Below are positions 2,384-32,810 of a DNA stretch of 35,804 nt, piece by piece. The stretch lies in IMG/VR virus record IMGVR_UViG_3300006737_000083, positions 1-35,804 of that record; one strand, written 5' to 3'. The notes under the pieces were generated by a model, which saw nothing but the letters and a program-made list of their open reading frames with translations, made no database searches and was not told where the DNA came from. A program made the translations under genes and the position numbers. How positions within the stretch are numbered: the stretch's first letter is position 1; each line of letters starts with the position of its first letter. This stretch comes from a virus.

Positions 2384-2575
2384 TTAAAGTTTTCTTACTG
2401 TAGGAAATTTTGGAAATACTTGAAATGCTTTTACTTCAAAGTCTAAAACTTCCCAATCTTGTGTAAATTGAGCAAGCTTTACAGCTTCTTCTTCGTTTAG
2501 TGCCTGAATTACAGTTTGAAATCCTGTGGCGTTTATTTCTTCCAAGCCTATGTAAACGGCTGGAACTCTAATCAC
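2384..2575 (-). CDS. Small hypothetical protein downstream of and overlapping terL
   Basis: The frame is open leftwards from an ATG at 2671 to the TAA at 2384. The stretch before the terL stop (2568) is probably not this protein, because terL codes there in another frame. I chose the GTG at 2575, which overlaps the terL stop by 8 bases and gives 63 residues; the ATG at 2671 (95 residues) or a TTG between remain possible. The core (AVYIGLEEINATGFQTVIQA) reads as a compact alpha/beta fold with a balanced composition. I recognise no family. It would be translated from the terminase transcript. Confidence 0.5.
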   Translation of the reverse strand: MIRVPAVYIGLEEINATGFQTVIQALNEEEAVKLAQFTQDWEVLDFEVKAFQVFPKFPTVRKL

Positions 2576-4310
2576 CCAAGCTCTGATTCTCAAATCCTGC
2601 AAGGGAGATCCATCCTTCTTCCGTTTCGGCTTGCGGAATCTGATCCAGGGGGAGGCCCAAAATTCTTGCATCTAAAGCTCCTTGTATATCCCCATTGTAA
2701 GCAGCAATTTCAAGATCCCACAACTCTGCGTTACGTTCTTGCATTGCGTTCTCTTCATCTATAGCTAAAGAATCGTTCCAATATTCGACTGCTCCAGCCA
2801 AAGCATCGAGTCTATCGTCATGTTGTAGTGAGTTTCTATCGACTGTCAAATGGGTTAATTGATGGAATAATTGATAAGCCAGGGATGTTTCTACACTATC
2901 TTCGTCTTTTGCCTTACTATCATTCTCGACAACCGACCTATTTATGATTAATCGGTGTTGGTTCATCACAGGTTCTAGCGCATTTATAATTCTTCTTTCT
3001 TTTTGTACGTTACTTCTAGCTGGTTCTACAGTACATGGGTATATTCTACGCAAATATGGCTGTAAAAGGCTCTGTAACATCCCCTGACCAAATTGATCTT
3101 CCAGGATGATTAAGTTTACCTCTTTTCTTCTAGCAGCTTTTGCAAGCCCTTCTAAGACAGGCTCTGTATATCCTTCTCTAAACGATCCTACCTCTAATAC
3201 AAATAGATTTCCGTTAAGTTGAGCGACTATAGCGTATGCTGTTTCATCCATACCCTTACCAGAAGGGTCAACAAACATCACACATCCATCAAACTCTATC
3301 CATTCTCCGTGTATATAAGCTGGTCTATGGTAGTAATCTCCACTAAATCCTACAGCTGGTAAATCTCCTATCCTATATTCTGCTCCTGACGACCATATAA
3401 TCTTCTCTGGAGCGTGGTCATCGACCTCCATTACAACTAAATCTGATAAACGTAAGGGAAATCTTTGTAAATCTGACAGGCTAGTGTCTAGTTGGAACTG
3501 TAAAACAAACTGTGATCGACCATAACTAGCTTCTCTTTCTAACAAATCTATCTCAGAAAACCTATCTGGATCTGTAGGTTTACCTGGACTATCCTTACAT
3601 CCGTCTAAAATTACCTGGGCTAACGCATCTCCGTACTTTTCTGGCTTCTTTGGGTAACGACTTGTCCATATTTTGCAATCATATCCTCTCATTCTTAGCT
3701 TGTTGTAGATACTTTCCTCTGTTTGCGGTGTACCTAAGAACAGAATATCTCCACCAGGTTTAAGAATAGCGTTAAATTCACCAACACAAGCTATAAGTTT
3801 CTCTCTCATACCTACTGTCCAGGCTGTATTTGGTACTTCACAGTCATCAGCAAGTATTAAATCAGCACGACTACCTGTTAACTGCCCGAAAACACCCACA
3901 CTTTTTACAGATGCCGACTGATCTGGTATAGCTGGTCTTACATCGAACCTGTTACTTGCACTTCTTTGCTCTTCTCGATCAGGTTCTAAGCATTGCAGTA
4001 TAGGCATCTCTCGAATAAGCCTTAAACAAAACTGCGCAAAGTCATCTGCCCTGGTCTTCGAGGCCGACACCACCATTATTTTCTTCTGTGGATCGTTCCT
4101 TAGTAACCATAAAGTGTAGGCAGCTGCCATCCACGACTTACCTACTCCTCTAAACGCTTCAATAATCCTACGTTTCTGTCCATTCTGCATATACCCTGCA
4201 ATATCTAACTGTATAGGCGTTGGATTAGGAAGTTGTAGATGCTTCCATACAATCACTAAAAAATATCTAAAGTCTTCATCGTAGGGTTTTGGTAACTTAT
4301 CCCACTTCAT
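2568..4310 (-). CDS. terL: Terminase large subunit (T7 gp19-like)
   Basis: 580 codons, close to T7 gp19 (586). It is the motor that translocates DNA into the prohead through the portal and cuts concatemers. The N-terminal ATPase has a Walker A-type P-loop at residues 53-59 (FRGVGKS), Walker B LILADD at 151-156 and a coupling-motif-like LFLGTPQ at about 190-196. The C-terminal RNase H-like nuclease shows VDPSGKGMDE (D348) and LILEDQFG (E404/D405), with HDDRLDAL near the end as the third acidic cluster. The start overlaps the terS stop as ATGA. Unlike in T7, the gene is on the strand opposite to all structural genes, apparently reading from its own promoter with terS. Confidence 0.97.
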   Translation of the reverse strand: MKWDKLPKPYDEDFRYFLVIVWKHLQLPNPTPIQLDIAGYMQNGQKRRIIEAFRGVGKSWMAAAYTLWLLRNDPQKKIMVVSASKTRADDFAQFCLRLIREMPILQCLEPDREEQRSASNRFDVRPAIPDQSASVKSVGVFGQLTGSRADLILADDCEVPNTAWTVGMREKLIACVGEFNAILKPGGDILFLGTPQTEESIYNKLRMRGYDCKIWTSRYPKKPEKYGDALAQVILDGCKDSPGKPTDPDRFSEIDLLEREASYGRSQFVLQFQLDTSLSDLQRFPLRLSDLVVMEVDDHAPEKIIWSSGAEYRIGDLPAVGFSGDYYHRPAYIHGEWIEFDGCVMFVDPSGKGMDETAYAIVAQLNGNLFVLEVGSFREGYTEPVLEGLAKAARRKEVNLIILEDQFGQGMLQSLLQPYLRRIYPCTVEPARSNVQKERRIINALEPVMNQHRLIINRSVVENDSKAKDEDSVETSLAYQLFHQLTHLTVDRNSLQHDDRLDALAGAVEYWNDSLAIDEENAMQERNAELWDLEIAAYNGDIQGALDARILGLPLDQIPQAETEEGWISLAGFENQSLGD

Positions 4311-4543
4311 GCAGATTTACGCTTAAAAGCTACGACCTTATCTATATCTGGCAACGCTTTAGCAAGATCATCGACAGCACTTCCCTCTGTAGCTGTAGCT
4401 GTTATCTGATTATCCTTAAGAAACTGCCTAATCACATTAAGATCAGCGACTGTCGCCTCTCCACTATCTAGCAAACTAGATAAATGTCCAGCAAGATTAG
4501 CGTGTAGATTACTTAACTGCTCTGCTACATCTTTTTGTTTCAT
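4307..4543 (-). CDS. terS: Terminase small subunit (T7 gp18-like)
   Basis: 78 residues from ATG at 4543 (MKQKDVAEQLSNLHANLAGH), close to T7 gp18 (89). The frame is open further upstream to 4621, but that extension (CFTSAFTLLGIFPWW) is unlike the family, while the ATG at 4543 has an AAAGAA-type SD just before it. The helical N-terminus and the basic end (FKRKSA) match small terminases that recognise concatemer DNA and hand it to TerL. The 4-base ATGA overlap with terL implies coupled translation. A sigma70-type promoter candidate lies about 90 bases upstream. The family assignment rests on position, size and pattern, not on a signature motif. Confidence 0.85.
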   Translation of the reverse strand: MKQKDVAEQLSNLHANLAGHLSSLLDSGEATVADLNVIRQFLKDNQITATATEGSAVDDLAKALPDIDKVVAFKRKSA

Positions 4544-4636
4544 GGTTCTTTGTAATTCTGTAGGGAACTCAACCCACCACGGAAAGATCCCTAAGAGTGT
4601 AAATGCGGAGGTAAAACACATCCTTAATATAACACT

Positions 4637-5428: not shown

Positions 5429-5430
5429 AA

Positions 5431-5838
5431 ATGGAAACTTTAACAGCAAACAAAAAAATTGAAATGTACGCCAGGATCAGAAAGCATGGAGAAGACATCA
5501 AAAAGATATTTTCCATGCCAGCTGCAACTGACCCTATCAAGCTTTGCAAAAGTTTAAGAAGGTTAGAAAGTACAGCGCAAGCAATCCAGGAAACACACGG
5601 AAAGGGATTTTATAAGCTGGCAGCTGCACAAGAAGCAGCATTAATGGTTAAATTAAAAGCTTTATTAATGCCAGCTGCAACGCCAGAAGAGTTTCTAAAA
5701 TTTGGAATTTTTCTTAATACTGATCCTCGAGGCTATGCGCTAAAGATCCCTGATGAATTAGTAAAGGTTAGTGGCTGGACTATTCATAAAGATTGGGGGG
5801 AGTTTGGAATACTTGCGCCCGACCTTAACGAAGATTAA
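5431..5838 (+). CDS. Early hypothetical protein (135 aa)
   Basis: The ATG at 5431 starts a protein with a helical N-terminal two-thirds rich in Ala/Lys, containing a duplicated MPAAT motif (about residues 29-33 and 80-84, encoded by a repeated ATGCCAGCTGCAAC). The C-terminal part includes TDPRGYALKIPDE and KDWGEFGILAPD. The pattern 'DPRGYALK...KDWG.(Y/F)GI.AP' resembles a motif I recall in many phage hypothetical proteins, which supports a real conserved domain of unknown role. It is the largest early gene before the RNA polymerase and is followed by an 82-base gap with two hairpins. Confidence 0.7.
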   Translation: METLTANKKIEMYARIRKHGEDIKKIFSMPAATDPIKLCKSLRRLESTAQAIQETHGKGFYKLAAAQEAALMVKLKALLMPAATPEEFLKFGIFLNTDPRGYALKIPDELVKVSGWTIHKDWGEFGILAPDLNED

Positions 5839-7413: not shown

Positions 7414-7597
7414 ACCAAAAGGAGAAAAGGTACAGGCAACACTTAGCTCCGAGACTTTTCGCAGAGTCAAGGCACTAGCTAAAGCTAAGAATATATCTGA
7501 TAGTGAGGTTATGAATTACATAGCGCAGTCCTGGATGGTCGATAACTTTGATAAAGAGTATGGATTTTGGAAGAAGAAAATACAAGAACAGAGTTAG
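7400..7597 (+). CDS. Ribbon-helix-helix-like small DNA-binding protein (65 aa)
   Basis: ATG 7400 is preceded by TAGGAGTC. Residues about 10-46 (KVQATLSSETFRRVKALAK followed by NISDSEVMNYIAQSWM) match the beta-strand, helix, helix pattern of Arc/MetJ/CopG-type repressors: a short polar strand, then two amphipathic helices with hydrophobic spacing. A basic tail follows (WKKKIQ). Such proteins dimerise and bind operators. Sitting just before the RNA polymerase gene, it is a candidate regulator of the early region, perhaps acting at the repeats in 4702-4880; this is inference. The gene overlaps the TTG-start version of the RNA polymerase by 31 bases. Confidence 0.6.
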   Translation: MEATKPKGEKVQATLSSETFRRVKALAKAKNISDSEVMNYIAQSWMVDNFDKEYGFWKKKIQEQS

Positions 7598-9948
7598 ACC
7601 AGGAGGAACTGGAAAGGGAGATGCTTACTCTAGGCTGCGATAGAGTTAGACTCCTGGGTAATCGACAAAAGAAAAACAAGATGGAGTCTCTCTCTAAATG
7701 GGGTGAGGCTCTATCTGCACATGGATGTAATGAAATAGTCCTGCACTTACGAGCTATCCGTAAAAAGATAGAGAAGGGAGTAGCTGGTAAGAACTTTGCT
7801 AGTCTTATGCCCTTAACTTTTCTTCCTGCTCAACAAGTAGCTGCTTGCGGAGTGCGTACAGTAGTGGACAGTCTTAGTGCTAATCCAACTTTGCACTCTG
7901 TTGCTACAGATATAGCTGATAAATTATGGATAGAAACCATGCTCGATAGAGCAAGCCTCCTAGAATTGAAAAACTTTAGGCGTGGTAGAAGTAGAAAAGC
8001 ACACAAGATGGCTTACATCAGGAGGATGGAAGCGACAGAGAACTGGCAACCCAAAGAAAGGATGGCATCAGGAGTCCTACTCATCGAACTGATAGAAAAA
8101 TATACAGGCTTGATAAAGATAGAGCTAGATACTGTAGTTAGACCACCGAGAAGAGTAGTCCTGCCGACTGAACAATGCCTTGAATGGGTAAGCAATGTAA
8201 AAGAACAGCAAGAATTGATGACTCCTAACTGGTTGCCTATGTATATTCCTCCTCGACCCTGGACTAGCACCCTCGATGGAGGTTACAGAAACAAAAACCT
8301 ACCGCTAACTCTTATGAAGAGTAACTCTGAGCTAGTAGCACAAAGAACTACAGGTAAAGAACAGTTTATACAGGCAGCAAACATCCATCAATCAGTACCC
8401 TGGATGGTTAACAGTTGGATGTTGGAGCAAGTCACCCACGCATACGAAAGAAACATAGAAGTTGGTTGCTTACTGCCGAGAGAGGGGTGGCCTGTAGATC
8501 CATACCCCAAGCATTTACCAGAAGATCACCCTGGTATAACCAAGTGGAGGTATAAAGCTAGAGCTATACACGAAAAGAACGACAAGACCAGGGGTGGAAG
8601 GATCGCCCAGGCTAAAACATTATGGGTAGCACAGAAATTTAGAGAAGAGAAAGAGATATATTTTCCTATGAGCCTAGACTTCAGAGGCAGATACTACTAC
8701 CGACCTCCTTACCTCAACCCTCAAGGTAATGATGTATCAAGGTCGCTATTATTATTTGCTAACGGCACTAAGATAGATAGTCCAGAGGCAGAGAACTGGT
8801 TACGCATACATGGTGCTAACTTATATGGATTAGGTAAGGCAGATTGGCAGACCAGAATAGATTGGACTAAAGAAAAGCTTAGATATATCTTAGATGCTGG
8901 TAAAGATCCCTGGATTAATGCAGAATTTTGGATGAGAGCAGATAAACCCTGGTCATTCTTAGCATTTTGTCGCTCCTTCTATCTATACAGGACAATTCCA
9001 GATTACAAATGCAATTTACCTGTGATGTTGGACTGCACTTGTTCTGGAATACAGCATTATGCCTCCCTTTTAAGGTCAAAAGAGATGGGATTGCTTGTTA
9101 ATCTTGAGAATGATGAGACACCAAGAGATATATATGCAGAAGTAATCAATAAAGTTAACAATAAACTACGCAAAAGTGACGATCATCGGGCTAAGAAGTG
9201 GTTAATGCTGCAACCTGATAGGTCACTAGCCAAGCCTTGCGTTATGACTACCCCTTACTCTGCTACAAATACAGCATTTTATTATTTTGCATACGATTGG
9301 GCTACAAAAAGAGCAAGAGATTTATTTGGTCACGGCAGCTGGACTACAAATAAAGGATCAATGTCGACTATGCACTACATGGCACGCATATTACATACAG
9401 AAGCAACGTCATTAATAGAGCCAGCAGTCGAAGCAATGAAGTGGTTTAAGTTTATAGGTAAGGTAGCAGGAAAGAATGACGTAGCACTTGAATGGGTCAC
9501 TCCTTCGGGGTTGTTAGTGCATCAGGAGTACAGCGACACAAAGTTATCGAGGATAAGACTTAAGTATTTATCAGATATTTATTTAGATATACGAACACAA
9601 GTAGATAAACCTGGCCTAGATAGCAAGAGAATGAGTTATGCTTTATCTGCAAACGTACTTCATAGTTTTGATAGCAGTCACATGGCAGCTACAACTGTGG
9701 ATTCAATGAAATACATACAAAATATAGGAGGAGTACACGACTGCTTTACCACCACTCCAGCAGAAATGTCACAGCTAAGAGATTCAGTAAGAAAAACTTT
9801 TGCAGATATGTATGCACATGATTGGTTGTCAGATATAAAAGTAAAGCTAACATCACAAATACCAGGCACTAAGGGTATGCCTAGTGAGCCACAGCACGGA
9901 ACTCTCGACCCTAACATCACACGTCATTCAAATTATTTCATCACATGA
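7567..9948 (+). CDS. rpo: Single-subunit T7-type DNA-directed RNA polymerase
   Basis: 793 residues if started at TTG 7567, shorter than T7 gp1 (883). It would transcribe replication and structural genes from phage promoters. Catalytic motifs are intact: motif A LDCTCSGIQHY with D489 (T7 D537), motif B RSLAKPCVMTTPYS with K556 and Y564 (T7 K631, Y639), and motif C VHDCF with D725 (T7 D812). T7 has G640 after the motif B tyrosine; here it is Ser. The start is uncertain: TTG 7567 has AAAGAG about 8 bases ahead, while ATG 7621 has AGGAGG at 7601-7606, 14 bases away. The gene overlaps the RHH-like gene upstream and the SSB gene downstream (ATGA). Confidence 0.97.
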   Translation: MEEENTRTELDQEELEREMLTLGCDRVRLLGNRQKKNKMESLSKWGEALSAHGCNEIVLHLRAIRKKIEKGVAGKNFASLMPLTFLPAQQVAACGVRTVVDSLSANPTLHSVATDIADKLWIETMLDRASLLELKNFRRGRSRKAHKMAYIRRMEATENWQPKERMASGVLLIELIEKYTGLIKIELDTVVRPPRRVVLPTEQCLEWVSNVKEQQELMTPNWLPMYIPPRPWTSTLDGGYRNKNLPLTLMKSNSELVAQRTTGKEQFIQAANIHQSVPWMVNSWMLEQVTHAYERNIEVGCLLPREGWPVDPYPKHLPEDHPGITKWRYKARAIHEKNDKTRGGRIAQAKTLWVAQKFREEKEIYFPMSLDFRGRYYYRPPYLNPQGNDVSRSLLLFANGTKIDSPEAENWLRIHGANLYGLGKADWQTRIDWTKEKLRYILDAGKDPWINAEFWMRADKPWSFLAFCRSFYLYRTIPDYKCNLPVMLDCTCSGIQHYASLLRSKEMGLLVNLENDETPRDIYAEVINKVNNKLRKSDDHRAKKWLMLQPDRSLAKPCVMTTPYSATNTAFYYFAYDWATKRARDLFGHGSWTTNKGSMSTMHYMARILHTEATSLIEPAVEAMKWFKFIGKVAGKNDVALEWVTPSGLLVHQEYSDTKLSRIRLKYLSDIYLDIRTQVDKPGLDSKRMSYALSANVLHSFDSSHMAATTVDSMKYIQNIGGVHDCFTTTPAEMSQLRDSVRKTFADMYAHDWLSDIKVKLTSQIPGTKGMPSEPQHGTLDPNITRHSNYFIT
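8878..8895. repeat. Second copy of the 18-base control-region repeat
   Basis: CTTAGATATATCTTAGAT here is identical to 4704-4721 in the divergent control region. It lies within the RNA polymerase coding sequence (residues LRYILD), so it may be a coincidence of AT-rich sequence or a second binding site. Confidence 0.5.
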
Positions 9949-10559
9949 CTACTAAAAGAAAAACATTAATCACAAAGACACCAGTTTGTAGATTCCAATA
10001 CACCTGGGTAGTAGAGGCAGACACTAAGTATGAACCAATGTGGAAGGTTACTTGCCTCATACCTATGGATAAAGCACTTGACTTAGAGAAAGAGCTAGAA
10101 GGCTTCCTCGAAGAGCATAAGCAAGAGGTTAAATCTGCTGATCCAGATAAGAAATTTAAGTTAGCTAACAAGCCCTGGAGCTATGAAAAGATAGACGATG
10201 GAGAAGGAGAACAGGATTACTTTGTTGTAAAAACTAAGATGCCAACAGGAGGTATTAATAGAACTACAGGAGAGCAATGGCACATGACACCACCTGTATT
10301 ATTTAATGCAGATAACCAGCTGATGACAGAAGATGAGAAACAGAAGGTTAACAAGTGTGGTCAAGGTACACTAGGACAAGTCAACTTACGCTGCCAGGGT
10401 TACTCTGGTAATTTTGGAGTGGGTGTAAAGATACAACCACAAGCAGTAAAGATACACAAACACGTTGAGTATGTTAAATCAGCCCAGGACTTCGGCTTCG
10501 ATGCGCCAAGCAAAGCAGTCATACCACTCGAAGCGGACTTCGACTCAAACGAGTTCTAG
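9945..10559 (+). CDS. ssb: Single-stranded DNA-binding protein (T7 gp2.5-like)
   Basis: 204 residues (T7 gp2.5 has 232). The protein coats ssDNA at the fork and coordinates helicase and polymerase. It has an OB-fold-type core with aromatic/basic strands (VCRFQYTWVVEADTKYEP, KPWSYEKIDDGEGEQDYFVV) and a C-terminal acidic tail ending in Phe (EADFDSNEF), the family's protein-docking feature. The tail is short with few acidic residues compared with T7. The gene sits between RNA polymerase and endonuclease I as in T7 (1, 2.5, 3), starting by ATGA overlap with the polymerase stop. Assignment is by order, tail and general pattern. Confidence 0.88.
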   Translation: MTTKRKTLITKTPVCRFQYTWVVEADTKYEPMWKVTCLIPMDKALDLEKELEGFLEEHKQEVKSADPDKKFKLANKPWSYEKIDDGEGEQDYFVVKTKMPTGGINRTTGEQWHMTPPVLFNADNQLMTEDEKQKVNKCGQGTLGQVNLRCQGYSGNFGVGVKIQPQAVKIHKHVEYVKSAQDFGFDAPSKAVIPLEADFDSNEF

Positions 10560-10923
10560 ATACAGAAGTAAATTCGAGGCAACTGTTGCCAAGAACCTTG
10601 ATGACAACAAAATTAAATTCTCCTATGAAACCCTCAACATTGATTACATCCTCAATAGCAGTTACTGCCCTGACATCATCTTCGATAATGGGATTATATG
10701 CGAAATTAAAGGCGTACTCGATAAGGAAACAAGGAGAAAACATCTTGCGGTCAAGGCGCAACATCCCGAATTAGATATACGTTTTGTATTTCAGAACAGT
10801 AAGAACAAACTAACTAAAGCTAAAGGAAGTCTGACTTACGCCAAGTGGTGTGATAGGCACGGCTTCCTATACGCTGACAAAATTATCCCACCAGAATGGT
10901 ATGACAACCCAGGAAAAAATTGA
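10501..10923 (+). CDS. Endonuclease I, Holliday-junction resolvase (T7 gp3-like)
   Basis: 140 residues from ATG 10501; TTG 10465 or ATG 10471 would give up to 152. I prefer 10501 because it leaves about 20 residues before the conserved YRSKFE, as in T7 gp3 (149 aa). The nuclease motif is complete: YRSKFE (T7 E20), FSYE (E35 region), YCPDI (D55), EIKG (E65, K67), then HPELDIRFVFQNS and PPEWYDNP as in T7. It cleaves branched DNA so that concatemers can be packaged, and in T7 it also degrades host DNA into nucleotides. It overlaps the ssb gene by 59 bases. Confidence 0.95.
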   Translation: MRQAKQSYHSKRTSTQTSSRYRSKFEATVAKNLDDNKIKFSYETLNIDYILNSSYCPDIIFDNGIICEIKGVLDKETRRKHLAVKAQHPELDIRFVFQNSKNKLTKAKGSLTYAKWCDRHGFLYADKIIPPEWYDNPGKN

Positions 10924-10987
10924 ACAGGCAAAGAAAAGGATAAAAGAATTAGAACGACTTATTGCTTATTGGTCTAATGGTAAGTAA
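10901..10987 (+). CDS. Possible 28-residue leader peptide before the primase-helicase
   Basis: ATG 10901 opens 29 codons to TAA 10985-10987 inside the junction of the endonuclease and primase-helicase genes. The product is a charged helix (QEKIEQAKKRIKELERL) ending in IAYWSNGK. There is no clear SD, but the frame bridges both neighbours and could couple translation into the helicase gene, whose own starts lack an SD. Low certainty. Confidence 0.3.
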   Translation: MTTQEKIEQAKKRIKELERLIAYWSNGK

Positions 10988-12590
10988 GTACATAAGCAAA
11001 GAACCTTGCCCTGAGTGTCAGTCAAAAGATAACGTAGCTGTCTATGACGATGGACATAAGTATTGTTTTGGCTGCGGTTGGCAGTTCCAACCACCTAAAG
11101 ATAAACCTATTAAGTTTGAGAAACCATTTAAGATGAAGGTCACACCTCTACTTCCATTCGTTACACCAAAGGAATTACCTAAACGTGGAATCACCAAAGA
11201 GACTTGCGAACTATATGACTATGGGTATGCAGAATTTAACAACCAGGTAGTCCAGGTTGCTACATACCACGACAAGATAGGCAAACCTGTTGCACAGCAT
11301 CTTCGATACAAAGATAAAAGATTCGGATGGGTCGGAGACACTAGCAATATGCAACTTTGGGGTCAAAAAATTTGGAGACAAAACCACGGAACTGAAACCA
11401 ATATCTTTGCTGTAATCACAGAAGGGGAAGTTGATTGCCTTACAATCAGCCAAATTCAAGGCAATCGTTTTCCTGTAGTTAGTTTGCCAAATGGTTGTCA
11501 ATCGGCTAATAAGTACATAGCCGCAAACTTAGAATGGTTATCACAATTCAATCGTATTGTTATTTGTTTCGATAGTGACCAGCCTGGCATGGCTGCTGCC
11601 GAGAAAGCAGTTGAAATCTTACCTCCTGGAAAGGCAGCTATATGTAGATTGCCAAGAAAGGATGCTAACGAAATGCTCCTCGCAGGAGAAGGGGAAGAAC
11701 TTAAGGATCTCTTATGGAAAGCAATCCCTGCTAGACCAGATGGAATACATAACGCCTATGATTTATGGGAACAACTAATAAAGAAAGACGAGACAGGCGT
11801 ATGTAGTTATCCATATCCAATACTTAATAAGATGTGCCAGGGGTTTCGTAAGCAAGCACTCGTAACTATCTGCGCAGGAACAGGATCGGGGAAGAGTTTA
11901 CTCTGTCGAGAATTTGCTTATCACTTCCTAAATAATGGATTAAAGGTTGGTTGGATTGGATTAGAAGAGAGCAGTAAGAGAAGTATGCAAGGCATATTGT
12001 CTGTTGCATTAAACAAACCATTGCATCTTAACCAAGAAGAAGTAGATGAAAAGGAATTACGCCAGGCATTTGACTACTTGTTTGCTGGTAATAGGTTCTT
12101 ACTCCTGGAACATTTTGGCTCACTAGATCCAGATAGGTTATTAGAACAGATAACGTACATGGCAACAGGAGAGAACTGTGACGTTATCTTCCTCGACCAT
12201 ATTAGTATTGTCGTTAGCGGATTAACTGTTGGAGATGAGAGAAAACAAATTGACGTATGTGTTACCAAGTTAAGACAGGTAGTAGAGAAGACAGGGGTAG
12301 GTTTAGTTATGGTCAGTCACTTGCGCAGGACTGATGGTAAACCAGCTGAAGATGGAGGCGACATAAATCTAGCCAGCTTGAGAGGGAGTCAAAGCATAGC
12401 CCAGTTATCTGACCTCGTAATTTGTGGCATCAGATCACAGACTGACGAAGAGAAGAACAATGAACTACAGCTAAAAGTGTTAAAAAATAGACACACAGGT
12501 TGTCTAGGAATGGCAGATAAACTTACATATACAGAAGAGACAGGCAGACTTGCAGCTACAGCTGCGGATTTTTTTGGAGAAAAATTATGA
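10977..12590 (+). CDS. Primase-helicase (T7 gp4-like), full-length with zinc domain, no acidic tail
   Basis: 537 residues from ATG 10977 (TTG 10962 is also possible); T7 gp4A has 566. It unwinds DNA 5' to 3' and makes primers. An N-terminal zinc ribbon (C11, C14, C30, C33: CPEC and CFGC) is present, then TOPRIM motifs (ITEGEVDCLTI; CFDSDQPG), and a RecA-type helicase with Walker A GTGSGKS, Walker B VIFLDHISIVVSG and HLRR. The C-terminus stops at ETGRLAATAADFFGEKL; the acidic tail that in T7 gp4 (ending TDF) docks gp5 DNA polymerase is missing. The stop overlaps the exonuclease start by ATGA, leaving no room for a DNA polymerase gene, which T7 carries in this interval. Confidence 0.97.
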   Translation: MVSKYISKEPCPECQSKDNVAVYDDGHKYCFGCGWQFQPPKDKPIKFEKPFKMKVTPLLPFVTPKELPKRGITKETCELYDYGYAEFNNQVVQVATYHDKIGKPVAQHLRYKDKRFGWVGDTSNMQLWGQKIWRQNHGTETNIFAVITEGEVDCLTISQIQGNRFPVVSLPNGCQSANKYIAANLEWLSQFNRIVICFDSDQPGMAAAEKAVEILPPGKAAICRLPRKDANEMLLAGEGEELKDLLWKAIPARPDGIHNAYDLWEQLIKKDETGVCSYPYPILNKMCQGFRKQALVTICAGTGSGKSLLCREFAYHFLNNGLKVGWIGLEESSKRSMQGILSVALNKPLHLNQEEVDEKELRQAFDYLFAGNRFLLLEHFGSLDPDRLLEQITYMATGENCDVIFLDHISIVVSGLTVGDERKQIDVCVTKLRQVVEKTGVGLVMVSHLRRTDGKPAEDGGDINLASLRGSQSIAQLSDLVICGIRSQTDEEKNNELQLKVLKNRHTGCLGMADKLTYTEETGRLAATAADFFGEKL

Positions 12591-13330
12591 CGCTATTGAT
12601 TGATGCTGATTGGCTAATCTATTCTTCTTGTTGTGCTTGCGAGACAGATTTTAGGGCTGACGATGGATCACATTTACTGCACAGTACAGAGAAAGACTGC
12701 ATGGATCTAGTCGACCTTCGGATAGAAGGATATAAGAAGTTAACTAATGACGACAGCGGAGTGATAATGTGCTTTACTCAATACCCAACCTTTCGTCATG
12801 GGATATACCAGGACTACAAAGCTAACAGGGTAGGCAAACGTCACCCACTAGCTTTGCGTGATGTCATACAAATAACTAAAGAGTGCTATCACTCTGTTGC
12901 TTTTAACGGACTCGAAGGAGATGACGTAATGGGGCTATTGGCAACGAATGGTCAACATGATAATCCTATTATTGTTTCTCCAGATAAAGATATGAGAGGA
13001 GTACCTTGCACCTTACTTGCTAACGATGACCTCGAATTAATTACAAGAAAGAAAGCAGATAGACATTGGATGCAACAAGTATTGTCAGGAGATCATACAG
13101 ATAACATCGAAGGACTTGTAGGAGTTGGACCAAAGACAGCAGAGAAAATGCTAGAGGGCGCAACTACTGTCGAAGAGATGTGGGATAAGGTTGTGAAGAG
13201 TTACGAAAAGAAAAACAAAACCTATGCCGATGCAATAATGACAGCCCAACTTACTCGCATCCTTCGGGATGAAGAGTACAATTACACTACAGGAGAGGTA
13301 CAGTTATGGCAGCCATTGACGATACAGTAA
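12587..13330 (+). CDS. 5'-3' exonuclease / flap nuclease (T7 gp6-like)
   Basis: 247 residues, somewhat shorter than T7 gp6 (300). It removes RNA primers and degrades host DNA 5' to 3'. The PIN/FEN acidic residues are present: LIDADW (D6, D8), GLEGDDVMG (E110, D112, D113), SPDKDM (D133, D135), GDHTDN (D169, D172), followed by the helix-hairpin-helix GVGPKTAEKML (179-189) that grips duplex DNA. ATG 12587 overlaps the helicase stop (ATGA). In T7 gene 5 (DNA polymerase) and several small genes separate these two; here they touch. Confidence 0.95.
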   Translation: MTLLIDADWLIYSSCCACETDFRADDGSHLLHSTEKDCMDLVDLRIEGYKKLTNDDSGVIMCFTQYPTFRHGIYQDYKANRVGKRHPLALRDVIQITKECYHSVAFNGLEGDDVMGLLATNGQHDNPIIVSPDKDMRGVPCTLLANDDLELITRKKADRHWMQQVLSGDHTDNIEGLVGVGPKTAEKMLEGATTVEEMWDKVVKSYEKKNKTYADAIMTAQLTRILRDEEYNYTTGEVQLWQPLTIQ

Positions 13331-13506
13331 ACGAAGGCTATCCAGCGATTGACGAAGCACTTATTATTAAGCTAAAAGAGTTATTTCCAGATCGTTGCCC
13401 TACGATTGATATGACTGATCGTGAGATTTGGTTATATTCTGGTCAGGTAAAGCTGGTAAAAATTCTTGAATCAGTTTATATTGAACAAAACAACCTACAA
13501 AATTAA
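13306..13506 (+). CDS. Small hypothetical protein between exonuclease and structural genes (66 aa)
   Basis: ATG 13306 has AGGAGAG about 8 bases ahead and overlaps the exonuclease by 25 bases. The product is acidic, with IDEALIIKLKELFPDRCP and DMTDREIWLYSGQVKLVKIL. This 'L...FP.......(R/K)EIW...GQ..(V/L)...L' pattern resembles a small protein recalled at this position in marine T7-like phages. Its function is unknown to me. It marks the end of the replication block. Confidence 0.65.
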   Translation: MAAIDDTVNEGYPAIDEALIIKLKELFPDRCPTIDMTDREIWLYSGQVKLVKILESVYIEQNNLQN

Positions 13507-25193: not shown

Positions 25194-28100
25194 ATGCCTT
25201 TTGAAGAATATAAAGACGAGAACGGAGAAACTAAAACTCGTTACGTTGCTCCAGAGGGATCTATAAAAGAACAACCAAAAGAAGGATTCCAGGAAGGTGG
25301 AGATTTTGATTTAGGTGCATCTGTCGGTAGAACATTTGGACAGGCTGGTAGAGACTTTGTTCAAAATATATACGATTCTGTTTACGATGAAGTAGCTACA
25401 TATAACCCTACTGACGCAATAAAGAATGTAATGTCAGGTGGCAATCTATATGAAAGTATTACAGGTAGAGACTTTTTTACAAACAAACCTAAAGAAACTA
25501 AACCAGGAATAATAGGTAAAGCATTTAATATGCAACCTACTACCTTTGAAAACCCAGATGCTGACATTCCTTTTCTAGGTAAACCATTTGACAATGTTGC
25601 GCAAAACAATGCGGAACACATGATTGGTGGATTACTGGCTTCGATAGGCCAGTTTGCATTAGTTGCTAAAGGACTTAAATCTAGTGGTGTAAAAGCACCG
25701 CAAGTTCCTTTATTTAAAGGCACTATGAAAACTAAGCTTGCAAGTAAAGCACCTAAGTTAAAAGGTTTTTTTGAAAGATCACAAGGTAGATTTATACGAG
25801 GTGCGCAAGAAGGTTGGCTTCCAGGAGCAATAAATGATTTTGCTATAGAAGATCCCTGGGATGGTAATATGGTCAACTTACTTGCTAGTGCCGTACCAGA
25901 CGGAAAATTAAAAAATCTATTAAATGAATTTGCAGTTACAGAAGACGATACCTTAGCAGAAGCAAAATTAAAGAATGGAGTAGTAGGTACATTTATAGCT
26001 GGCCCTTTATTAGGTGGATCACTAGAGCAATTAGGTGGTGGTAAAAGAGAAACTTTAATAATGTTTGATGCTATTGCAGATTATTTTACTAAAGGTGCAA
26101 AAGTTGCTAAGAAAGGAAATACAGCTAGAGGTATAGCTAACCCCTTAAAAGAACTCACAGATCAAGAGTCGGCAGAAGTAGGGATTACGAAACTTACAGG
26201 TAGAGAAAAGAAGTCAGCAACAGAGCAAGCTGTAGAAATTATCCAAGAGCAAGATAAGGCACAAAAAGCAAAAGATTTTCCAGGCACTAGCGGACAGCAA
26301 CTTAATACAGATGGAGTAGATCAAAGCGAATTAGAATTTAATGACGCATTAAATGAATTAGAGCAAGCTAGAAAAAATTTAGAAGTAAAGGCATCAAGGC
26401 AGAAATTTATAGCTGAGTCGACAGGAGGTATAGATGAGACTAAAAGTCTAGATTTACAACCTGTACCTAGTACAGAACTTGCAACTATTGGAGTAAATGA
26501 TATTGCTGTCAATTCACAAAGATTTCAATTTAAACAAGCAGGGCAAACAAAAACTGGACAGAGTGGATCTTTAGGTGCAATAACTAAATACAATACTGAC
26601 TTAGCTGGTGTTGTAAGTGTATGGAGAGATCCAGCTGACGGAAAAACTTATGTTGTTAATGGACATAACAGGTTAGCAGCAGCAAAAAGGCATCAAATAC
26701 CGACTGTAAATGTTAGGTATCTTGATGCTCCAGATGCAGCAACTGCAAGAGTAAAAGGTGCTATGCAGAATATTGCAGAAGGAAATGGTACAGGTGTTGA
26801 TGCAGCAAAGATAATTAGAGAGACAAAGATGGGCGTAGAAGAAATGGTACAGCAAGGTATTAGCCCTAGCGGTGTAGTAATGAAAAAAGCAATACCTTTG
26901 TCAAAGTTACCTGGAGCATTATTTGACCAAGTTGCCACAGGAAGAATGACAGAAGACATGGGAGTAGCGATAGGAAGCAGCAATGCGCAAACTCAAGTAA
27001 TGTTTGACCTGGCAAAAGCTGCAAAGAAGAAAGGCTGGAGTGCATCTAAAACAGCAGAAGCTGGAATGATTGCAAGGCAGTCAAGTGTTATAGAGACTAC
27101 TGATCCAAATGCTCTACCTCTTCTTGGCTATGACACGCTTATTACATCTAACTTTGAGAAACAATTAAATGTACGCATTGCAATTAGACAACAGTTAAGG
27201 TCAGAAATAAACGCATTAGGAGTTGCTGCAAACACAAAAAAAGCAGGAACATTAGAAAGTGTAGGAAATGTTATTGATGTTGATGCTAGTAAAGCTGCAA
27301 GAGATGAATCTTTACAGGGAGAAGTCGTATTTAACAGACTTGTTGGAACGGAAGGTAAGCTAAGTGATTTAGTTAATGACCTAATAAAACAAGTTAAAGG
27401 AAACAAAAAAGCTGCTACTGTCGTGCAAGCAAACATACAAAAAATAAAAACAGTACTTAGAGAAGAAGCAACTTTAACAACAACTAAAAAGCAAGACATT
27501 TTAAGCGGAAAAGAAAAATTAGAAAAATTTGTTGACGAGCAGTTAATGCCTATAGCAGATGCACCAGGAAGCGGATACGCATATAAAACAAATGTTTTAA
27601 AAATTTTTGAAGGTTCAAATGAATATTTACAGACTAGAAAGTTAGAGCTAGAGAAGGAAGGCTATCCTTTATCTGCAAGACAATTAAAAAACATAGAAGG
27701 TTATAGCGGTAAAGATCCAAGAGGTTACGCTAGACAGTTAACAAAAGACCATCATCTTTTCCACATGGAAATAACAACTGATGAGTTTTTAGAAAACTTA
27801 GGTAAAAACACAGAAAAAGAAGCAGAAAGACTGTTTGATATTGAATCAAAGAAATTAGAGGAGAAATATAACGCTTACATGAAAGCTAATAATAATGTGC
27901 AGCGATTAGAGTTAGACCTGGAATATAAAACTATTGTTGAAGAGCAAGTAAAAAGAGGTGGTGTAACTAATAATCCTACAGAAATTAATAAAAAACCAGA
28001 CACAATTTTTGTAAAACAAACTACTGAGACAGTAGCTACAGGTACATCAAACATTATTACAGAGCCAGAACTACCTAAAAGATTAAAAGGAGCTAAGTCT

Positions 28101-31100
28101 AGGTATCGTCAAATGAGTGTATCTTTTGATAATGACATTGATAAAGCTATTTATATAGTTACTAAACGGCCTAACAGAAGAACAGTTGTAGAGATGACAG
28201 GTGGTAGTAAAAATAATCCAGACTACATTAAATTCTTAATGGATGATAATGGCTTTACAGAGCAAGATATTATTCGTATAGCAGATAGCTTATATGATGA
28301 TTTTAAGGCCAACTACAGAGAAGGTGTAGAGTATGTAGCCCAAGCTGGTTACAAGTCACTAGGTTATAAGTCAGGACAACTTAGCTTAGATCCACTTAAC
28401 GGAATAAATCCTATACATAAAAGATCCTACGGAACACTAGGTAACGACTATACAGGCATGAATATGCTGAACTATAGAGAGAAATTTGAGTTGTTAGAAG
28501 AAGTGCAAAGAATGGCTGGCAAAGATGTAAACGTACAATTTGTAGCAGAGTTAGAAGGTAAGCTTACAGCTAAACAAGCAGCTGACTATGGGTTAACAGA
28601 AGGAGATAGCTATAGCGCAGCTGGAGAATTTATCTCTGCTAAAAATCCAGCAGATGATTTAATAATGATTTCTATGTTTAGTAAGGGTGGCTATAGAGGT
28701 TTTAATAAATTATTAAGGACTGCTTTTCACGAATCATTCCACAGAATACAAAAAAGATTACTTAGCAAGGCAGATCAAAAAGCTCTTATTGCAGGAGAAA
28801 GAGAGATAAGAGAGTTAGCTGCTAAGACTATGCCAGAGTTTAGAGACAGCATCCTCGATGGCACATTAGGTAGGCAAGAGATAGAAGCTATAGCGTTTAG
28901 TGATTGGTATATGCGTAACACAGATTATCCAAAAGCAACCTGGTCAGAGCCGTTTAAGAAGATTGCGCAGATTATTGAACGTACAGGTAATTTCTTAAAA
29001 GGTAGAGGTTATCAAACTTGGGATGACGTATTTGAGAGATCAATGCGTGGAGAAACAGCAGAACAAGCTGTATCAAATGACTTAATTGCACCAGCAACAC
29101 AACTTGCTATTGATCCTCCAGATCCAGATAAACTAGCTAACGAAATAAAGAAAAATATAAACGCAATAAATAGCGGAGATATGAGTATAGAAGAAGCTCT
29201 TAAGAACCAAGCAGTAGATGAGCCTAGAAGATTAATTAGTCGCAGCGGTAAAACACAATATGTAGAAACTCCTAGCGAACAGTTAGCTGCATCCTATAAA
29301 GCCTTTAACGATTTAATATACAACCTTACGTTTGACAGAGCAGAAGCTACAGGTATAGCAAATCTTGATAGAGCTATGTTATTTAACCAGGCTGTAGATA
29401 AATTAAAGATGGATGGTGGAGATTCAGATGCAATAATATCAAGCGTAGAAAGAGCATTGAAAGGAGATCCAAGATCGGCAGATGATTTAATAGCTCTAGC
29501 TACACTACAACTACAAACAGACATTGTAAGAAACAAAACAGGAATACAAAGCCAAGCATATTTATCTGCTCCTGAGTCAGAAAAAGGTATTGAACTACAA
29601 AGATTTAAAGCAATGCTAGGAGAGCAACTTAAATTAGATGTTGCGTATATGAGTGTAATGAGAAAGACAGGACAAAGACTAAGTATGGGTAAGTTAATGT
29701 TTAGGGCAGATGACGTAGATTTATCTGATTTACCTAGCGAAGTAACTCTTAGAAAAGGTACATCTAATGAAGCTGGTACAAAAGCTCTTACTGACGGCTT
29801 TGACGTTACCCAGGAAACAGGTGCTATGGGTCAAGCTGTTTATTTTACTACTGACGAAAGCAGTATAAAAGTTATGGATGGCTACGATAATGCAGAAGTA
29901 TATGGTGATTTAATTAACGACATAAAAATATTAGACTTATCTGCAATGAATAAAAGGCTAACTGATTTAGTAGTTGACTTAGGATTAGGTCAGGTAAAGA
30001 AAACCAAGAACGGATTAGAACTAAACCCTGCACAAATAGAAGGTATAAAAGCATATTTAACAGACAGGGGTTATGCAGGAATAAGATACGAGCCTAGAGA
30101 TACTGGTCGCCCTAATGCGCCAGCAGATGAAATAGCTATCTTTGATAACAATTCTGCTAACAGAATCATAGGATCTGATGCAAGCGTACCTCCTAGTGCA
30201 ACTCCAGAAGCACCAAAAAGAACTTTATTAGAACAAGCTATTGCAAAATCAGAAGACTTATTGAACGATAAGTTAGATCCTAAGTTGCTAGATGCTATCG
30301 AAAGCGGAGAACTAACACAAGAAGCAATAGAGCTAGGAGATGTAATGGTTGCTATCTCTAACTACTCACAAAAAAATAGAGGATTTAACAAACATATATC
30401 TGACTTAATTCAACAAACTCCTAAAGGTGGCTTAACGCAAAGAAGACTACTTAACTTTTATCGAGGTGCAATATTACTGTCAGGAGAAACTACCTGGAAG
30501 ATGATGATAGGTGGTTTATATAGAGCAGCTACATTGCCTGTTATACAGACTATGGGAGGCTTTAGTCGAGGCGTAGGCCAATCTATAACAGGAAACAAAG
30601 CAGAGGCGTATAAGAGTTTTAGAAGGGCAAGATTAGGAGCAATGATATATGGACAGTACTACCAAAATTTAGGTAATGCTTTTCGTCTTATGGGCGCAAC
30701 TTTAATGGAGAATGAAACCTTTGGTAACTTAGGTGTAGATCAGATGCAACTAAGAACTAATAGTAGATTTAATCCTGTTGACCAACTTAGCCTGGGAAGT
30801 GATGAAGTACAGGTAAGTAAGAAAAGTGATATATGGCACGCAGATCCAAACAATAAAAACTTTTTTGCTAATGCTGCCTTAAGAGTAATTAGCGCAGTAC
30901 CAAAAGCTACAGGTCGTTTAGCTGGTGGTGTAGATACATTTATGAGTTCATTAGTTGGCCCAAGTATGGAATACGTTAGGTTTTTAGACCAGGAGTTATA
31001 CCACGCAGAGACAGTATTAGGTATGCGCCCTGGATCTAACGAGGCGTTTAACTATGCAAGTGACAGGGCTGTTGAGTTAGTCAAAGCAGAAATGGTAGAT

Positions 31101-32810
31101 GTAACACTTGCTAATGGTAAGAAAATAGAAAATGGTGCGCTTACTGGTCAAAATGCAAGATATATTATGGATTGGGTTAACTTTACTGATTCACTAGATG
31201 TTGTACCAGCACCAAGAACATACGATTATGGTGTAAGAAAAGCTAGAGAAAGTGGTATTACAGATCCTTTAGACGTACATAACTTTGCAAACAAATACAT
31301 AAACGAAGGAAGTAACATATTTAATCAAGGAGGTGTAGCTGGTGGCATGGCAAAAGCATCTCAAGCTGTTGGACTTGTACCAAAAGCACTAGGAAACGTA
31401 GTAGAAAACTACCCTGCATTTGGTCTTATATATCCACTACCTAGAGGGCCAATAAATATTGTAAAGGCAAGCGCAAGAGCATTTCCTATTACTGCTCCAT
31501 TTGTAGATACATTTTGGAGAGATATAACTTCAGAAGATTTATTTACAAGAGATAGAGCTATAGGGGAGATGGCGTTAGGTACTACAACACTAGCTGGTGG
31601 TATAGCGTTACTATCTACAGGATTAGTTGAGTTTACTGGCTTTAGGTCTACTAACTTTAGAAACAGAGAAGCTGGCCCAGAAAGTGTAGAGAGAGGTAGA
31701 GAGCCTATGAGTATAAGATTTAAGAATCCATTTAGCGATAGCGAAGAGTGGACACCCTGGTACTCACTACAGACTTTTGATACATTAAGCAATATCTTTG
31801 GTGCAATAGGAGAATATGCAGAAGTTGGCAATAGCCTTACAGAAGAAGAAAAAGAGGTAGAAAGCTCTATAGTTACAATGAAAATTGCACACGTTGCAAG
31901 AGCATTAGGTATGGGTCAATTTAGCAAACAAATATTATCTAGTATTACTGAAATATTTGACGTTGTGGCTGGTTTCGATGAAGATGCTGCAAGAAGAATG
32001 AAGAAAGGTAAAACTGGTGCATTTAGTAGATATATAGAAAGAAAGCTATCATCATTGCTAGTGCCAGCTGCTATTAGAAAAATTAATATAGGAGAAGCAA
32101 GAAGAGATATTGTAGCTAGTGAACTACCTTTTCCATTTAATGTTGTATCAAACACAGGTCAAAGAATACAATTACAAGTTCCTGGAGCAAGAGAAGGGCT
32201 ACCACCTGTATTACATAACTACTCAGGAGATCCTATAGACGACAGAGATTACGCTGGTACAGGTGCAATACCAGAAGATATGCCCTGGTTAAAGTTTTTC
32301 TATAAAATGATTACACCGACTTCCGCATTTCCTAGTCGCTCTAAATCTACGCATCCTGTCGATGTAGAGCTAAGTAAGTTGTATGGTAAAGGTTCTAACT
32401 ACAAACCCTGGAATGATAATATTTTTAACTTATCAGACAAAGTTTTAAACAGAGAGGAATTAAACAGGCTTATAACAATAGGTACAAAAGAAATAAAAAA
32501 CCAATCTGGTAATACTTTATGGGAAGAACTAACATCGTTAGTCACAAAAGATCCAGTTTATGCCTCTTTAGATTATTATGTTAGCAGCGAAGTTGAAAGC
32601 CCAAGAATGACAATGATTAAGAATGTTGTTGCGGAATTTAAAGACAAAGCAAAATTGAAGTTTTTAGAAGAAAGACCTGATATACAACAAATGATAAATG
32701 ATAAACAACAGAAAATCATTGATAAACAATACACAAGAGATAGACTAAACAGTATGAGCGATAAACAAAGTCGCAATGATTCACAGCAGTTCTTAGCTCA
32801 ACTTAACTAA
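25194..32810 (+). CDS. Giant internal virion / ejection protein (gp16 position) with polyvalent-type effector domains
   Basis: 2538 residues, nearly twice T7 gp16 (1318). It occupies the gp16 slot between gp15-like and fibre genes, so it should be ejected into the host. It lacks the N-terminal transglycosylase of T7 gp16. Visible parts: an N-terminal region with QPTTFENPDADIPFLGKPFD; a ParB/sulfiredoxin-like domain about 430-530 with VVNGHNRLAAAKRHQIP (487-503); a zincin-like HESFHR (H1179, E1180, H1183) with E1229/E1231 downstream; an ADP-ribosyltransferase-like segment about 1515-1660 (LRKG R1520, GQAVYFTT 1546-1553, GYAGIRYEP 1626-1634, DEIAIFD with E1646); and a C-terminal third with hydrophobic helices (for example GTTTLAGGIALLSTGLVEF). 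These resemble phage polyvalent-protein domains; activity is unproven. Confidence 0.85.
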   Translation: MPFEEYKDENGETKTRYVAPEGSIKEQPKEGFQEGGDFDLGASVGRTFGQAGRDFVQNIYDSVYDEVATYNPTDAIKNVMSGGNLYESITGRDFFTNKPKETKPGIIGKAFNMQPTTFENPDADIPFLGKPFDNVAQNNAEHMIGGLLASIGQFALVAKGLKSSGVKAPQVPLFKGTMKTKLASKAPKLKGFFERSQGRFIRGAQEGWLPGAINDFAIEDPWDGNMVNLLASAVPDGKLKNLLNEFAVTEDDTLAEAKLKNGVVGTFIAGPLLGGSLEQLGGGKRETLIMFDAIADYFTKGAKVAKKGNTARGIANPLKELTDQESAEVGITKLTGREKKSATEQAVEIIQEQDKAQKAKDFPGTSGQQLNTDGVDQSELEFNDALNELEQARKNLEVKASRQKFIAESTGGIDETKSLDLQPVPSTELATIGVNDIAVNSQRFQFKQAGQTKTGQSGSLGAITKYNTDLAGVVSVWRDPADGKTYVVNGHNRLAAAKRHQIPTVNVRYLDAPDAATARVKGAMQNIAEGNGTGVDAAKIIRETKMGVEEMVQQGISPSGVVMKKAIPLSKLPGALFDQVATGRMTEDMGVAIGSSNAQTQVMFDLAKAAKKKGWSASKTAEAGMIARQSSVIETTDPNALPLLGYDTLITSNFEKQLNVRIAIRQQLRSEINALGVAANTKKAGTLESVGNVIDVDASKAARDESLQGEVVFNRLVGTEGKLSDLVNDLIKQVKGNKKAATVVQANIQKIKTVLREEATLTTTKKQDILSGKEKLEKFVDEQLMPIADAPGSGYAYKTNVLKIFEGSNEYLQTRKLELEKEGYPLSARQLKNIEGYSGKDPRGYARQLTKDHHLFHMEITTDEFLENLGKNTEKEAERLFDIESKKLEEKYNAYMKANNNVQRLELDLEYKTIVEEQVKRGGVTNNPTEINKKPDTIFVKQTTETVATGTSNIITEPELPKRLKGAKSRYRQMSVSFDNDIDKAIYIVTKRPNRRTVVEMTGGSKNNPDYIKFLMDDNGFTEQDIIRIADSLYDDFKANYREGVEYVAQAGYKSLGYKSGQLSLDPLNGINPIHKRSYGTLGNDYTGMNMLNYREKFELLEEVQRMAGKDVNVQFVAELEGKLTAKQAADYGLTEGDSYSAAGEFISAKNPADDLIMISMFSKGGYRGFNKLLRTAFHESFHRIQKRLLSKADQKALIAGEREIRELAAKTMPEFRDSILDGTLGRQEIEAIAFSDWYMRNTDYPKATWSEPFKKIAQIIERTGNFLKGRGYQTWDDVFERSMRGETAEQAVSNDLIAPATQLAIDPPDPDKLANEIKKNINAINSGDMSIEEALKNQAVDEPRRLISRSGKTQYVETPSEQLAASYKAFNDLIYNLTFDRAEATGIANLDRAMLFNQAVDKLKMDGGDSDAIISSVERALKGDPRSADDLIALATLQLQTDIVRNKTGIQSQAYLSAPESEKGIELQRFKAMLGEQLKLDVAYMSVMRKTGQRLSMGKLMFRADDVDLSDLPSEVTLRKGTSNEAGTKALTDGFDVTQETGAMGQAVYFTTDESSIKVMDGYDNAEVYGDLINDIKILDLSAMNKRLTDLVVDLGLGQVKKTKNGLELNPAQIEGIKAYLTDRGYAGIRYEPRDTGRPNAPADEIAIFDNNSANRIIGSDASVPPSATPEAPKRTLLEQAIAKSEDLLNDKLDPKLLDAIESGELTQEAIELGDVMVAISNYSQKNRGFNKHISDLIQQTPKGGLTQRRLLNFYRGAILLSGETTWKMMIGGLYRAATLPVIQTMGGFSRGVGQSITGNKAEAYKSFRRARLGAMIYGQYYQNLGNAFRLMGATLMENETFGNLGVDQMQLRTNSRFNPVDQLSLGSDEVQVSKKSDIWHADPNNKNFFANAALRVISAVPKATGRLAGGVDTFMSSLVGPSMEYVRFLDQELYHAETVLGMRPGSNEAFNYASDRAVELVKAEMVDVTLANGKKIENGALTGQNARYIMDWVNFTDSLDVVPAPRTYDYGVRKARESGITDPLDVHNFANKYINEGSNIFNQGGVAGGMAKASQAVGLVPKALGNVVENYPAFGLIYPLPRGPINIVKASARAFPITAPFVDTFWRDITSEDLFTRDRAIGEMALGTTTLAGGIALLSTGLVEFTGFRSTNFRNREAGPESVERGREPMSIRFKNPFSDSEEWTPWYSLQTFDTLSNIFGAIGEYAEVGNSLTEEEKEVESSIVTMKIAHVARALGMGQFSKQILSSITEIFDVVAGFDEDAARRMKKGKTGAFSRYIERKLSSLLVPAAIRKINIGEARRDIVASELPFPFNVVSNTGQRIQLQVPGAREGLPPVLHNYSGDPIDDRDYAGTGAIPEDMPWLKFFYKMITPTSAFPSRSKSTHPVDVELSKLYGKGSNYKPWNDNIFNLSDKVLNREELNRLITIGTKEIKNQSGNTLWEELTSLVTKDPVYASLDYYVSSEVESPRMTMIKNVVAEFKDKAKLKFLEERPDIQQMINDKQQKIIDKQYTRDRLNSMSDKQSRNDSQQFLAQLN

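Follow-up and report, generated by a model that had tools for sequence, protein, structure and literature searches.

The 35.8 kb stretch of viral DNA analyzed here (the window) carries a T7-type replication module, in which the genes for an SSB, an endonuclease, a primase-helicase (gp4) and an exonuclease follow an RNA polymerase gene (Table 1). An earlier note made from the sequence had described these four replication genes as intact; all four are matched by profiles, and alignments with relatives showed that the zinc-finger, Toprim and Walker motifs of gp4 and likewise the motifs of the exonuclease are conserved. The best start for gp4 is the ATG at 10977, in agreement with the note; the mechanically predicted ORF begins at a TTG at 10962. 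The reported ATGA overlap of the primase-helicase and exonuclease genes was read directly from the sequence (...GAAAAATTATGACGC...), with the gp4 stop codon TGA located at 12588-12590 and the exonuclease ATG starting at 12587.

Table 1. Features of the replication module in the window
Feature	Position	Strand	Support
T7-like single-subunit RNA polymerase	7567..9948	+	phrog_414 2.6e-176, PF00940 1.3e-74
Gp2.5-like single-stranded DNA-binding protein (SSB), C-terminal end DFDSNEF	9945..10559	+	phrog_112 6.5e-17
Endonuclease I (T7 gene 3 type)	10465..10923	+	PF05367 1.8e-41
Primase-helicase (gp4, T7 gene 4 type)	10977..12590	+	phrog_239 3.9e-161, PF03796, PF21268, Toprim
Overlap ATGA of gp4 stop and exonuclease start, slot of the polymerase gene in polymerase-bearing relatives	12587..12590	+	sequence, relatives
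5'-3' exonuclease (T7 gene 6 type, FEN-type)	12587..13330	+	phrog_107 7.6e-57, PF02739, PF01367
66-aa ORF of unknown function, after exonuclease	13306..13506	+	phrog_4970 2.5e-5

The note had placed this junction at the slot of T7 gene 5 (order 4-5-6), a comparison that is right because gene 5 is located between genes 4 and 6 in T7. A polymerase gene also lies between primase-helicase and exonuclease in HTVC200P, HTVC109P, CRP-361 and S42-C7. Homologues of the window's primase-helicase, endonuclease and exonuclease are also part of a T7-type module in pelagiphages HTVC200P and HTVC109P, roseophage CRP-361, cyanophage P-SSP7 and coliphage T7, but in these phages the primase-helicase gene is separated from the exonuclease gene by one for a family A polymerase, whose annotation is split in P-SSP7. 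Features of a T7-type replisome, a gp4-like primase-helicase and a gp2.5-like SSB, are present; however, the window does not encode a complete T7 replisome, since a phage-encoded gp5-like DNA polymerase is missing. The 66-aa ORF downstream of the exonuclease gene is conserved in every polymerase-less genome of the comparison and also occurs in two pelagiphages that have a polymerase.

Relationship to MPP-C cyanopodoviruses

Sequence comparison identified the window as the greater part of a marine cyanopodovirus genome of MPP-C type, related to P-SCSP1. Its gp4 is 96% identical to that of 17 Prochlorococcus phages (P-SCSP1a-u; MPP-C, PMC9860041), the next best match having 51% identity, and the window groups with P-SCSP1 and P-SCSP2 in the gp4 and exonuclease trees, which cover two of the nine core genes. 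MPP-C phages infect Prochlorococcus MED4, and based on this kinship the host is presumably Prochlorococcus. The P-SCSP1a-u phages resemble the window in the order RNA polymerase-SSB-endonuclease-primase/helicase-exonuclease without a polymerase gene, in a nucleotide identity of about 84% over most of the genome and in the inverted orientation of the terminase genes; they differ by about 16% nucleotide divergence, with several early ORFs and the tail-fiber end diverging. Since this divergence falls outside the population cut-off of 95% quoted in PMC9860041, the window represents a separate population. MPP-C phages are described as lacking auxiliary metabolic genes; in the incomplete window, none was seen among the subset of ORFs that was scanned.

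The window is collinear with P-SCSP1b: identity is 84% across positions 7102-34875, and most of the other aligned stretches have 71-90%. This collinearity indicates that about 2-3 kb are missing from the window (MPP-C genomes have 37.3-37.9 kb) and that the unseen segment corresponds to approximately 29-32.4 kb of the complete P-SCSP1b genome, starting inside its tail-fiber gene. The nucleotide match to P-SCSP1b ends at 29.1 kb, and the window goes on into diverged fiber sequence. Besides the end of the fiber gene, the corresponding P-SCSP1b segment contains two small ORFs (150 aa and 68 aa), an ORF of 426 aa (30963-32243) with matches to tail-fiber families, and the first part of an ORF encoding 97 aa. 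At 5430-5835, the window spans the ends of the linear P-SCSP1b record (37821 to 433), which are separated here by some 400 bases without a match; these ends may therefore be arbitrary or a joined terminus.

P-SCSP2 and the uncultured Jalkavirus S08C159 (GU943031) share the polymerase-less gp4-exonuclease junction with the window and fall into one clade with it in the gp4 tree, but their gp4 proteins are just 51-52% identical to that of the window. P-SCSP2 further differs in having an integrase, in carrying TerL on the opposite strand and in lacking homologues of the 948-aa and 2538-aa late proteins of the window. The genes for the large and small terminase subunits (2568-4621) are on the minus strand in the window and in P-SCSP1b, whereas P-SCSP2 and P-SSP7 carry TerL on the plus strand. 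Three small genes on the minus strand at 981-2108, common to P-SSP7 and all polymerase-less genomes compared and not found in two pelagiphages, have a position and size that suggest a lysis cassette. For P-SCSP2, which was stated to have no recognizable endonuclease gene (PMC9860041), we found an unannotated endonuclease I ORF (OM416780.1, 5185-5625, plus strand; phmmer 2.1e-46 to the endonuclease of the window).

Polymerase searches and spread of the junction

The absence of a DNA polymerase ORF from the window, as claimed in the earlier note, was borne out by negative searches with profiles of families A, B (PF00136), C and Y. The Pfam family A profile had no match in the window, whereas 10 of the 14 genomes used as controls gave one. 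With every filter switched off, another profile, constructed from four marine T7-like polymerases, likewise had no match at E <= 10; this search covered the window, P-SCSP1b, P-SCSP2 and GU943031. PF00476 was searched in 25 whole records and matched all four polymerase-bearing controls and none of the 21 polymerase-less records, which comprised the window, two complete isolates and 18 records from IMG/VR with lengths of 33-41 kb. Polymerases of families C, B (PF00136) and Y had no match in nine records; the search for family B_2 (PF03175) was uninformative, because no control matched. MPP-C phages have no identifiable DNA polymerase gene, and none was identified in the window.

Relatives of gp4 were gathered by four scans of IMG/VR and GenBank records were included, yielding 242 loci with gp4. 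The exonuclease gene directly follows gp4, without a polymerase, at 151 of these loci; a polymerase is present at 79, and 12 are too short to tell. By contig name, eight of the 151 polymerase-less loci are second copies, leaving about 143 distinct contigs. The distance between gp4 and exonuclease is -72 to +280 bases (median -6) at polymerase-less loci and 1780-3440 bases (median 2584, 58 measurable loci) at polymerase-bearing ones, with no overlap between the two groups. The comparison with polymerase-lacking cyanopodoviruses that the note had suggested places the window among them, and since the absence of DNA polymerase from the MPP-C clade (P-SCSP1a-u and others) has been published (PMC9860041), the finding as such was already known.

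A gp4 tree was calculated from 67 representatives (12 polymerase-less, 55 polymerase-bearing), leaving out the last 12 residues. The 12 polymerase-less representatives form one clade (support 100/100), requiring one change on the tree, and they are one clade in the exonuclease tree as well (SH-aLRT 99). A single loss is thus the simplest account. Loss is favored over gain because the gene is present in T7 and all other relatives, and is probably the direction of change, which a root on the long T7 branch cannot prove. The trees do not resolve where the polymerase-less clade is placed among the other phages.

The polymerase that copies the phage DNA

T7 gp4 has acidic C-terminal tails that bind to basic patches on gp5; when 17 residues are removed, processivity drops to about 5 kb, from 17 kb (PMC12593628). 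While gp4 of T7 and P-SSP7 both terminate in TDF, gp4 of the window ends in ...DFFGEKL and is without an acidic Phe-ended tail. A tail with an aromatic last residue and an acidic residue among the three preceding positions is found in 37 of 55 polymerase-bearing gp4 representatives and in none of the 12 polymerase-less ones; the remaining 18 polymerase-bearing representatives, including some whole clades, also lack such a tail. Over the last 15 residues, net acidity averages 0.4 in polymerase-less and 3.6 in polymerase-bearing gp4 representatives. This difference is not a replicated correlation, because the polymerase-less helicases share one ancestor and represent a single event. SSB tails end in Phe at nearly all loci, both with and without polymerase.

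With moderate confidence, we read the window as an MPP-C genome from whose lineage the T7-type polymerase was lost, probably once, and whose DNA would be copied by a host polymerase, Pol III being likelier than Pol I. The small ORFs next to the T7-type polymerase gene would have been lost along with it, before the divergence of the P-SCSP1 and P-SCSP2 branches. The gp4 hexamer of the phage would unwind and prime the fork, the Gp2.5-like SSB would coat single strands, and endonuclease I and exonuclease would degrade host DNA and remove primers, with synthesis left to a host polymerase, for which the Pol III holoenzyme is a likelier candidate than Pol I. A functional parallel may be Bacillus phage SPP1, whose replication proteins work with host Pol III (as cited in PMC9860041); SPP1 differs from the window in belonging to another phage family and in having its own initiation protein, none being recognized in the window. 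The preference for Pol III is a judgement. No origin-binding protein was recognized in the window, and a simple pattern scan of SSB, endonuclease, gp4, exonuclease, RNA polymerase and the 66-aa ORF did not reveal any beta-clamp-binding motif, so nothing points positively to recruitment of Pol III.

Host DNA polymerase I, a family A enzyme like T7 gp5, might instead have been recruited in place of the lost phage polymerase, the first option named by Cai et al. (PMC9860041). An enzyme of the same family as the lost one would suit a T7-type fork with little change to helicase or SSB, and the conserved Phe-ended SSB tail could contact it. We nevertheless regard this as rather unlikely, given that the acidic Phe-ended helicase tail, which docks the family A polymerase in T7, is absent across the whole clade, and that Pol I is mainly a repair enzyme with low processivity (general knowledge; also PMC9860041).

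It is very improbable that the phage encodes its own polymerase in a form too divergent to be recognized, an option kept open by Cai et al. (PMC9860041). Such an enzyme could be located, for instance, inside the 2538-aa late protein encoded in internal-virion-protein position (25194-32810, plus strand), most of which is without family match: residues 426-738 match phrog_21 (labelled portal protein) and more than 2000 residues match no family. Searches of this protein gave no Pfam or PDB-sequence match and phrog_21, which is not a polymerase family, as the sole PHROG match, and P-SCSP2 has no homologue of it. The family A, B, C and Y searches were negative, and ORFs of the window longer than about 220 aa are all assigned to structural, packaging, transcription or replication functions or lie in the internal virion block. 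One origin of the polymerase-less state predicts that a substitute enzyme should be common to the clade. The P-SCSP1b proteins were compared with ten genomes, seven without a polymerase (among them P-SCSP1b itself) and three with one. RNA polymerase, SSB, endonuclease, gp4, exonuclease, the 66-aa ORF, structural and packaging genes and the three small genes near the terminase are present in all seven. Apart from the 426-aa tail-fiber-like ORF, each gene common to the seven also occurs in at least one of the three polymerase-bearing genomes, so that no clade-specific shared gene, and with it no substitute polymerase, is apparent. The 426-aa ORF was rejected as a candidate, being tail-fiber-like and matching the tail fiber in the window. 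This result weakens the third hypothesis of Cai et al., a divergent replacement enzyme, as far as gene content can tell.

Although the contig is linear and incomplete, the chance that the polymerase gene was dropped in assembly or lies in the unseen part, as the note had considered, is negligible: the same type of junction recurs in complete isolates and the approximately 143 distinct contigs, the P-SCSP1b segment equivalent to the missing part contains just tail-fiber-like and small ORFs and gives background scores alone with the polymerase profile, and 20 other polymerase-less records are negative for family A polymerases. With a polymerase in the unseen part and assembly loss both contradicted, use of the host DNA polymerase with the phage's own helicase, which the note had proposed, is the remaining and best reading and very probable, supported by elimination.

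Implications for the lineage

The lineage, the absence of the polymerase and the question of mechanism have already been published (PMC9860041), and the published absence implies that these abundant phages are overlooked in surveys that rely on the polymerase gene. The window contributes a further population to this known lineage. As the comparison shows, the absence reaches beyond the isolates to a broader clade and fits a single loss. Modest additions are the finding of a single polymerase-less clade, the lack of a substitute gene and the difference in the helicase tail. Tentatively, and short of an even chance, a wide marine clade may use a hybrid replisome, in which a tail-less T7-type helicase-primase would work with host Pol III, recruited via the Phe-ended SSB tail or other contacts, after one loss of a family A polymerase. 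The comparison also offers a concrete test of a T7-type helicase working without its own polymerase.
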